The position numbers and the translations under genes were made by a program. Shown here in pieces: positions 28,261 to 29,768 of a DNA stretch of 64,000 nucleotides; the first letter of the stretch is position 1, and each line of letters opens with the position of its first letter. Source of the stretch: Pseudomonas chlororaphis subsp. aurantiaca (GTDB lineage Bacteria; Pseudomonadota; Gammaproteobacteria; Pseudomonadales; Pseudomonadaceae); contig NZ_CP059162.1 of NCBI RefSeq assembly GCF_013466605.1, positions 5,456,001 through 5,520,000 on the forward strand, given 5' to 3'. The notes below the pieces were generated by a model. It did no database searches. It was not told the DNA's origin and saw only the letters and a program-made list of their open reading frames with translations.

Positions 28261-28320
28261 GTGGGTGGCGTTTGGGGAGTCTCTTCGGCCTTTCATTTTT
28301 GTGTTGCCTGGCCTGACGTC

Positions 28321-28404
28321 ATCGCGAGCAAGCTTCGCTCCTACAGAAGCAGGATCGCTGCGTTCCCGCTGTGCGCTTCTGTAGGAGCGAGGCTTGCCCG
28401 CGAT
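28321..28404. repeat. Inverted REP pair (class B)
   Basis: ATCGCGAGCAAGCTTCGCTC at 28321 onward is mirrored by GAGCGAGGCTTGCCCGCGAT ending at 28404, with CCTACAG/CTGTAGG completing the arms. Same class as 19340, 35046 and 38257. Confidence 0.87.
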
Positions 28405-28449
28405 AAGGTCCACCCAACCACCATAAGGCTCCCGGACGATACCGACTCG

Positions 28450-28596
28450 TGTAGCCGCTGCCGAGCCTGCGAGGCTGCGATCGGCCGCAAAGCGGACGCC
28501 AAACCAGACAACGCGGTGTATCAGGCCGACGGGGGATACCGCCCTTGCGTCTGCTACGCAGACGATCGCAGCCTCGCAGGCTCGGCAGCGGCTACA
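28450..28596. repeat. Long inverted REP pair (class A)
   Basis: TGTAGCCGCTGCCGAGCCTG at 28450 onward matches the reverse complement ending at 28596 over about 34 bp. The body enclosed carries its own smaller repeats (CGTCTGCTACGCAGACG). It is the longest arm seen among the REP pairs here. Confidence 0.87.
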
Positions 28597-28706
28597 GGGC
28601 CAATGTCGATCCGAGATTGGTGTGGCAGTGGCTACAGCGAAAATTCCTACAACACGCGTCGACTCCCATCACCTTGTCCCGCCGGGCCCCGGACTCTATG
28701 GTTTGG

Positions 28707-28928
28707 CCTGTCACTGCAAACTCAGTGACAGGGTGTGGAAGCCCTTATATCGTTAGGCGCGCAAAGCAACGTGAGTCAGGCGTTTTTTCGCCTGCACTTT
28801 ATGGCGGCTGTGCGTGGGGCACTCTCGAGTGCGCCGGGTGCCTAACGTCCCGGTCTTCCACACCTGCGTACAGCCGCCACCTGATTACGTGGAAGTGATT
28901 TCTGGCGACTCCGACTCATACGTTAGGA
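28707..28928 (+). ncRNA. Candidate structured RNA / bistable cis-regulatory leader with pseudoknot
   Basis: Perfect helices can be drawn by eye. P1: 28707-28716/28723-28732 (10 bp). P2: 28733-28741/28855-28863 (9 bp). P3: 28751-28758/28840-28847 (8 bp). P4: 28777-28782/28789-28794 with a T6 loop. P5: 28819-28823/28828-28832. P6: 28802-28811/28870-28879 (10 bp), which crosses P2 and P3 and so forms a pseudoknot. The 5' strands of P2 and P3 recur downstream: GTGGAAG at 28889-28895 and CGTTAGG at 28921-28927. The shared middle strands can therefore pair either upstream or downstream, and downstream pairing covers the AGGA before the ATG at 28937. No known RNA class is recognised. Confidence 0.65.
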
Positions 28929-28936
28929 ACAGACCA

Positions 28937-29257
28937 ATGAAAAAACTCACTCCCGATCCACCCGCGATCTTCGACGACACCAAACCCCACCGCTACATGG
29001 CCCTCACCAGCAACGACTGCACCATCCCCGCCTTGCTGATCGACACCGAGGCCCCCCTGGATGTGCTGCACGAAGCCGCCGCTCACCGCATCCGCGCCGC
29101 GATCCAGTTGCTGGAAAACATCGCCAGCGACGCCAACCTGCACAGCAACCCGGCGCTGCTCCAGGATTTCGCCCAACTCTGCGTCATCCCCCTGCGCGAT
29201 GGCTGCGACCTGCTGGACGTACTCGGCCGGCGCCTGCAGGAACAACTGCTGACCTGA
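28937..29257 (+). CDS. Small DUF3077/DUF6124-like protein behind structured leader
   Basis: A 106-residue soluble protein beginning MKKLTPDPPAIFDD. The pattern resembles the small Pseudomonas proteins annotated DUF3077 or DUF6124: a proline-rich start, then the helical LDVLHEAAAHRIRAAIQLLENIA. No function is known and no catalytic motif is visible. AGGA at 28925-28928 precedes the ATG by 8 nt and lies at the end of the structured leader, which may gate translation. The longer ORF from 28814 would read through that leader and is not favoured. It has no operon partner. Confidence 0.72.
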   Translation: MKKLTPDPPAIFDDTKPHRYMALTSNDCTIPALLIDTEAPLDVLHEAAAHRIRAAIQLLENIASDANLHSNPALLQDFAQLCVIPLRDGCDLLDVLGRRLQEQLLT

Positions 29258-29474: not shown

Positions 29475-29768
29475 ATGAACCCCCACCCCACTGCTCGTCC
29501 CCTCGCCCTGCTCAGCATCCTGGCTCTCGCCCTGGGCGGTTGCGCCATTGCAAAACCCAGCAACGACGACCTCAAGAACCGCGCCCAGACCACCCTCGGC
29601 AAGCCCGTGACCACGGTCTCCAATGTGCGTAGCGACGCGTCCCAGACCTACTTCACCGCCAGCACCAGCAACGGCGAATACAATTGCGTATTGCCCAGTG
29701 GCGGCATGGTCGCCTTCGCCTCCATGGGCGGCGTCGTAGCGCTCCCCGCGGAGTGCACCAAGCAGTAA
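29475..29768 (+). CDS. Small lipoprotein of unknown function
   Basis: A 97-residue protein with a clear lipoprotein signal: PLALLSILALALGGC, lipobox LGGC with Cys23. The mature part is about 74 residues and includes NRAQTTLGKPVTTVSNVRSD and SNGEYNCVLPSGGMV. It has two cysteines that could pair (in YNCVL and AECTK). AAGGAAGAATCACC precedes the ATG, a good Shine-Dalgarno arrangement. I do not recognise the family. It probably sits in the outer membrane, facing the periplasm. Transcribed alone; convergent with the EAL gene. Confidence 0.75.
   Translation: MNPHPTARPLALLSILALALGGCAIAKPSNDDLKNRAQTTLGKPVTTVSNVRSDASQTYFTASTSNGEYNCVLPSGGMVAFASMGGVVALPAECTKQ

Follow-up and report, generated by a model that had tools for sequence, protein, structure and literature searches.

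A C4 antisense RNA of the phage type, flanked by matching target sites, forms the leader of a small gene in Pseudomonas. It lies in a 64,000-nucleotide stretch of Pseudomonas chlororaphis subsp. aurantiaca DNA (the window), where the C4 antisense RNA model of Rfam (RF01695) matched positions 28797 to 28884 of the forward strand with 75.4 bits against a cut-off of 45. RF01695 was the sole Rfam family above its cut-off within the 64-kb window, and the RNA itself thus belongs to an established family. C4 is a textbook phage immunity RNA. The region from 28696 to 28936 very probably constitutes a C4 antisense-RNA cassette placed in cis with its own targets, which would switch the gene through its Shine-Dalgarno sequence.

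All parts of the cassette are on the forward strand. The C4 RNA, which is predicted to fold alone at -49.4 kcal/mol, has an outer stem formed by positions 28802 to 28811 and 28870 to 28879, an antisense loop b' (28840 to 28848), and an antisense strand a' (28855 to 28864). As in the two-armed C4 RNAs, both arms have partners on either side. Upstream, a1 (28732 to 28741) is complementary to the whole of a' over 10 bp, and b1 (28751 to 28758) is complementary to 28840 to 28847 of b' over 8 bp; downstream, a2 (28889 to 28895) pairs with 28855 to 28861 of a' over 7 bp, and b2 (28920 to 28927) pairs with 28841 to 28848 of b' over 8 bp. As at C4 target sites, b2 overlaps the Shine-Dalgarno sequence (AGGA, 28925 to 28928) ahead of the start codon at 28937. 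The target gene (28937 to 29257) encodes a protein of 106 amino acids that is in no Pfam or NCBIfam family. An in-frame GTG at 28889, inside a2, would lengthen the product to 122 amino acids; the ATG at 28937 with its AGGA is the preferred start.

In a permissive search, the a1b1 side of the cassette (28696 to 28749) matched the c4-a1b1 family (RF03163) with 44.9 bits (E value of 2.6e-10; cut-off, 46.7), and the same family was above its cut-off in two relatives, L134 (51.2 bits) and L135 (48.6 bits). This target module comprises a hairpin at 28710 to 28729 followed by a second hairpin with a1 in the loop region. The isrK model (RF01394) matched 28710 to 28788 in the permissive search with 39.9 bits, below its cut-off of 50. 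A run of six T residues (28783 to 28788), which could act as a weak terminator for a short IsrK-like RNA, passed a loose terminator test and was absent from the standard terminator scan. By eye, the likely promoter consists of TTGTCC (28674 to 28679) and TATGGT (28697 to 28702) with a spacing of 17 nucleotides, and transcription is expected to start near 28709. Similar boxes with equal spacing were seen by eye in relatives with and without C4; the pair was not listed by a scan for consensus promoters. Two large imperfect inverted repeats at 28450 to 28596 (50 nucleotides, 90%) and 28299 to 28426 (52 nucleotides, 79%), which we take to resemble REP/REPIN-type repeats, are located between gcd and the C4 cassette.

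The first-pass annotation had described this region as a structured leader in which two sets of pairings exclude each other and the 3' option masks the ribosome binding site, and this description holds, as b2 covers the AGG ahead of the start at 28937. Its helix P6 is the C4 stem, its "central strands" are the arms a' and b', and its duplicated partners are a1/b1 and a2/b2. The five pairings for which it gave coordinates are exact, and they extend to the lengths given above, with 10 bp for P6. The view that such duplicated strands are unlikely to arise by chance is likewise borne out: two doubly partnered words were seen in 2 of 20,000 dinucleotide shuffles of 28707 to 28939, and one word with its reverse complement on both sides was seen in 142 of the 20,000. 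The nested minimum-energy fold of 28708 to 28960 (-103.6 kcal/mol) takes the 5' partners. As isolated duplexes, the 5' pairings were calculated at -19.1 (a1) and -17.8 (b1) kcal/mol and the 3' pairings were weaker, at -11.1 (a2) and -13.0 (b2) kcal/mol.

The arms covary with all four targets. The arms of each C4 were compared with the flanks of its own locus and with the flanks of all other loci in the same genome, using 16 loci above the cut-off in the host genome (a 17th, below it, was dropped) and 47 loci in a related genome, G062, all oriented by the strand of the hit. The search stretches, chosen after the loci had been viewed, were identical for own and cross comparisons. For each of the four pairings, the observed sum was reached by 0 of 20,000 permutations in the host as well as in G062 (relatedness ignored). 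Covariation, which the first-pass annotation had proposed as the check on its pairings, is present in both the 5' and the 3' sets. Both arms matched their own a2b2 over at least 7 contiguous bp at 12 of 16 host and 30 of 47 G062 loci, and there were no matches of both arms to the a2b2 of another locus of the same genome at this length among 240 host and 2,162 G062 pairs. To judge from these comparisons, the codes do differ between the loci of one genome; selection against cross-talk is unsupported, because the absence of double matches compares with ~0.6 (host) and ~2.9 (G062) expected from the marginals. Cross-matches did occur (27 of 812 pairs) in a third set, made up of 29 loci from a range of genomes, as is expected where one code is present in several genomes.

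In a test with a near-fixed register (a shift of one allowed), the a' 7-mer had a perfect reverse complement in the upstream as well as the downstream flank at 55 of 63 loci in the two genomes (kinship ignored), compared to 27 of 3,774 when the flanks came from loci with a different a' 7-mer. There were 30 distinct a' 7-mers among the 63 loci, and the b' arms were all different within each genome (16 in the host and 47 in G062). The b' pairings were often short: pairings of at least 7 bp with the locus's own target were seen for b1 at 11 of 16 host and 12 of 47 G062 loci (the weakest pairing in G062) and for b2 at 12 of 16 and 31 of 47 loci, respectively. The window and 51 homologous loci with C4 contain 25 distinct arm pairs, and for each of the four targets, 0 of 20,000 permutations reached the sum of the own pairings (relatedness ignored). 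At a length of at least 6 bp, a1, a2, b1, and b2 were matched for 25, 24, 20, and 18 of these arm pairs. Outside the genus, the four-target layout was seen at the same length in 22, 24, 22, and 23 of 26 loci, so the layout seems to be general to C4. Terminator-like sites upstream of C4 were found at 17 of the 63 loci, the window included (mononucleotide shuffles: mean, 3.35; maximum, 8). A short IsrK-like RNA is not supported as a general feature of these loci, since such sites are above chance yet in the minority. One locus, L007, has a C4 with a good a1b1 and without a b2 (a2b2) match or a recognizable gene and is a decayed or reused copy.

Of 293 loci homologous to that in the window, 80 were kept, and 51 of them had a C4 above the cut-off. 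The C4 ended at most 70 nucleotides upstream of the tblastn gene match in 50 of the 51; in L186, the match overlaps the last 14 nucleotides of C4. Twelve of the 80 loci adjoin the same neighbors as in the window (gcd, the small gene at 29475, or both), and P. chlororaphis and Pseudomonas protegens both keep the cassette at this site. Among these syntenic loci, L121 to L123 keep the code of the window, and L124 to L126 differ from it in the arms and, to match, in the targets, with b' and b2 pairing over only 5 contiguous bp. The remaining six (L120 and L127 to L131) retain the gene and have no C4 above the cut-off, so C4 is not indispensable for the gene. By eye, promoter-like boxes, a1, and b1 are present and C4 and a2 are absent in L127 and L128; in L129 to L131, the first residues of the gene product differ.

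The exact arms of the window C4 were found at 30 places (the window included) in 29 of 398 genomes of the genus, and the 7-mers of a1, b1, a2, and b2 were all present at each of the 30. By eye, the gene that follows is related to the window gene at 25 places (apparently frame-shifted in L212) and is a Bro-N-like ORF with the same LTPDPP start at 5 (L203, L205, L222, L223, and L228; Pfam was run on L222). The same leader and start on different gene bodies suggest that the leader and the first codons form a mobile unit. A TPDPP- or TPNPP-like start was present in C4-led ORFs of the host (5 of 16), G062 (33 of 45), and other loci of the genus (5 of 28) and in none of 24 outside the genus.

C4 is widespread in the genus. 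Of 119 sampled genomes, the host included, 110 had a C4 match and 109 had one above the cut-off; at most 33 candidates were scored per genome in this run, so that high counts are lower bounds. When the 15 genomes besides G062 that had 33 candidates were rescored, each gave 35 to 55 matches. At the family level, a C4 match was obtained for 52 of the 79 genomes sampled. In the class sample, in which at most 15 candidates were scored per genome, 18 of 274 genomes matched, the host included, and the other 17 had 1 to 6 copies. None of the 14 control genomes in the genus, family, and class runs had a C4 match. One 1.5-Mb genome of the class (G379) has six C4 matches, four of which are on contig C9 within 1.4 kb.

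The genes led by C4 in the host and G062 mostly appear to encode DUF6124 proteins or relatives of the window gene product, not phage antirepressors. A gene of one of these two kinds was located within 450 nucleotides downstream of C4 at 13 of 16 host and 41 of 47 G062 loci. Among the 57 C4-led proteins of the two genomes that were scanned (6 of the 63 loci, with missing or doubtful ORFs, were left out), Pfam identified DUF6124 in 39, DUF3077 in 6, and Bro-N in 1. Conversely, C4 was found upstream of 4 of 5 host and 36 of 43 G062 matches to DUF6124 and of 10 of 15 host and 6 of 7 G062 matches to the profile of the window family, some of the matches in both searches being fragments. The 24 C4-led proteins from the 26 loci outside the genus have Bro-N (2), Rha (2), AntA (1), P22_AR_N (1), CsrA (2), SymE (1), and other domains, with one or two members per domain family. 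Genes of the window family are also found immediately after a DUF6124 gene, in second position, both in relatives including L168 to L170 (by eye) and in the host at L001, G000:C1:901781-902286, and this direct adjacency suggests that the two act jointly. At five loci (L002, L050, L019, L031, and L038), C4 is followed by a conserved ORF of 52 to 53 amino acids whose stop codon shares an ATGA with the start codon of a second ORF, of 94 to 96 amino acids, an overlap reminiscent of the icd-ant and orf45-anrP coupling.

The small gene had been described as DUF3077/DUF6124-like, which applies to most of the C4-led proteins scanned from the host and G062 and not to the window protein. The latter matched no Pfam family up to an E value of 10 and no NCBIfam family, and a profile comparison between the alignment of its relatives and DUF6124 proteins (probability, 1.3%; E value, 0.039) left kinship unsupported. 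It has 479 homologues, of which the best 120 were listed, and one PHROG match with an E value of 0.32. Its predicted structure is a helical hairpin behind two short strands (pLDDT, 87.8). No solved relative was found (best E value, 0.53), and at E values of 0.001 or less there were no structural matches to the window protein in the PDB or among viral structures and none to a DUF6124 protein (model pLDDT, 75) in the PDB. Members of the window family of 103 to 106 amino acids, including P0003, P0014, and P0019 among the matches listed, are labeled "short-chain dehydrogenase" in UniRef; for a family of this size, mostly helical according to the model of the window protein, this looks like a spread misannotation.

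Related leaders were also identified in mobile elements, with matches in 10 phage records, all of Pseudomonas, and 9 plasmid records. In vB_Pae_U10 (10.2 kb), C4, c4-a1b1, and isrK are all above their cut-offs, and the element has the arm cores of the window, CCTAACG and CTTCCACACC, together with the 7-mers of all four targets. PAJU2 has a different code, ahead of a Bro-N gene. Since these two leaders were the ones read and both were found by their similarity to the window, the code sharing of vB_Pae_U10 is a lead and not a statistic. No IMG/VR contig had the exact arms of the window. The window protein had no match in 50,697 phage records, so that control of a phage antirepressor, as in P1 and P7, is not seen at this locus; a DUF6124 protein had one match in phage records, at the edge of a Pseudomonas fluorescens prophage record. 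In L201 (PP003922.1), an ORF annotated as an excisionase extends right through the C4 cassette and is probably spurious at this position.

The P1/P7 C4 RNAs share with the window the RNA model (RF01695), two arms, target sites flanking C4, a b2 that lies on the ribosome binding site, and the same strand and order. In these phages, b' of C4 covers the ribosome binding site of the target, and C4 is processed by RNase P (PMC5320573). In contrast, the window C4 is located on the chromosome next to gcd, has an unclassified small gene as its target instead of icd and ant, and is one of 16 separately coded loci. IsrK of the Salmonella Gifsy-1 prophage (RF01394) also has an upstream module complementary to the middle RNA and alternative leader structures, and there the arrangement frees downstream translation; it has been likened to SeqA/CI/SeqC of phage P4 (PMC4825925). 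The two alternative structures of the IsrK leader were mapped and tested with compensatory mutations, structure A (the upstream module paired within the leader) was the inactive form, and IsrK supplied in trans raised anrP translation ~140-fold from a low basal level (PMC4825925). Unlike IsrK, the window leader scores below the isrK cut-off, no small coupled ORF was seen ahead of its gene, and its terminator is weak. Acinetobacter baumannii AB5075 resembles the Pseudomonas genomes in having many C4-like RNAs with variable arms, 21 Group 1 small RNAs on one chromosome, which are apparently processed as in phage (PMC5320573); however, cis targets and downstream families are not named in the available text of that report, and C4 of the window type is upstream of its own a2b2. 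C4 was listed for Proteobacteria and phages by Weinberg et al. 2010 (PMC2864571), whose prediction included Pseudomonadales according to PMC5320573. No report of C4 arrays in Pseudomonas was found in the full-text literature on C4 RNA, DUF6124, and DUF3077, a body mostly without subscription papers. In the same literature, no mention of DUF6124 was found, and DUF3077 was mentioned in one paper, a study of furfural tolerance in Pseudomonas putida.

By analogy with P1/P7, Salmonella IsrK, and the Acinetobacter C4 RNAs, from which we infer the processing, the direction of regulation, and the competition by a1b1, the cassette may work as follows. A single transcript starting near 28709 would comprise a1b1, C4, a2b2, and the gene, and C4 would fold as a stem with two exposed antisense arms. 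With the arms on a2 and b2, the Shine-Dalgarno sequence would be covered and the gene turned off in cis, and a C4 excised from the transcript could exert the same repression in trans on later transcripts. The a1b1 module, either within the leader or on a short RNA terminated at the T run, would compete for the arms and relieve repression, because it is the stronger partner for them. As its duplexes are stronger, a fresh transcript may begin with a1b1 bound to C4 and with an open ribosome binding site; silencing would then presumably follow once free C4 accumulates. Structure A of IsrK is inactive, however, so the sign of the in-cis pairing may differ from that assumed here.

The leader was earlier suggested to be a riboswitch controlled by a metabolite, temperature, or a protein, which would flip between two folds with no trans-acting RNA. 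The two mutually exclusive pairings, with the 5' set more stable, agree with such a device. However, the conserved part of the leader is the C4 RNA, the only Rfam family above its cut-off here, and the switching strands differ from locus to locus together with their targets. The riboswitch and thermosensor readings were dropped for these reasons, and we consider a ligand, heat, or protein sensor highly improbable. An origin of the cassette as a leftover of a prophage immunity region, without present function, would account for the related leaders in Pseudomonas phages, one of them in an element with the same code, and for the geneless C4 at L007, yet arms and targets covary across 63 loci, the cassette has stayed at one site in two species, and nearly all sampled genomes of the genus (109 of 119) have C4 above the cut-off, which makes this explanation very unlikely.

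The numerous self-matching paralogues, each with an antisense RNA directed at the ribosome binding site of a small gene, would also fit a type I toxin-antitoxin system, with C4 as the antitoxin RNA and the small protein as the toxin; in P1, cell division is blocked by icd, which is encoded in the C4 region (PMC8201110). However, C4 is on the same strand as its target, upstream within the target's transcript, and the protein is also encoded as a second gene behind DUF6124 genes. The six syntenic loci without C4 above the cut-off (three of which, L129 to L131, differ in the first residues of the product) weaken this interpretation further, and persistence of the gene without C4 disfavors a strong toxin. 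We regard a toxin-antitoxin pair as very unlikely.

For the C4 cassette with its own cis targets, a wider history can be drawn up tentatively, as one that we consider rather unlikely: Pseudomonas may have converted a phage immunity switch into dozens of RNA switches arrayed on the chromosome, each with a private address, which could tie the control of host genes to phage or satellite immunity. As part of this same tentative picture, the promoter, a1b1, C4, a2b2, and the first codons (often TPDPP or TPNPP) would be a module that moves between unrelated gene bodies (DUF6124, window family, and Bro-N antirepressor-like). Because codes are shared with mobile elements, as seen for vB_Pae_U10, a chromosomal C4 could silence an incoming element with the same code, or the RNAs of such an element could switch the chromosomal gene.

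In these genomes, C4 forms a large family of antisense cassettes on the chromosome, each paired in cis, with up to dozens per genome. Their codes, with no full cross-match inside the two genomes tested, would make them natural, separately coded RNA switches. DUF6124 and its neighbors gain a candidate regulator, and cross-talk between chromosomal and phage-borne C4 systems becomes testable.
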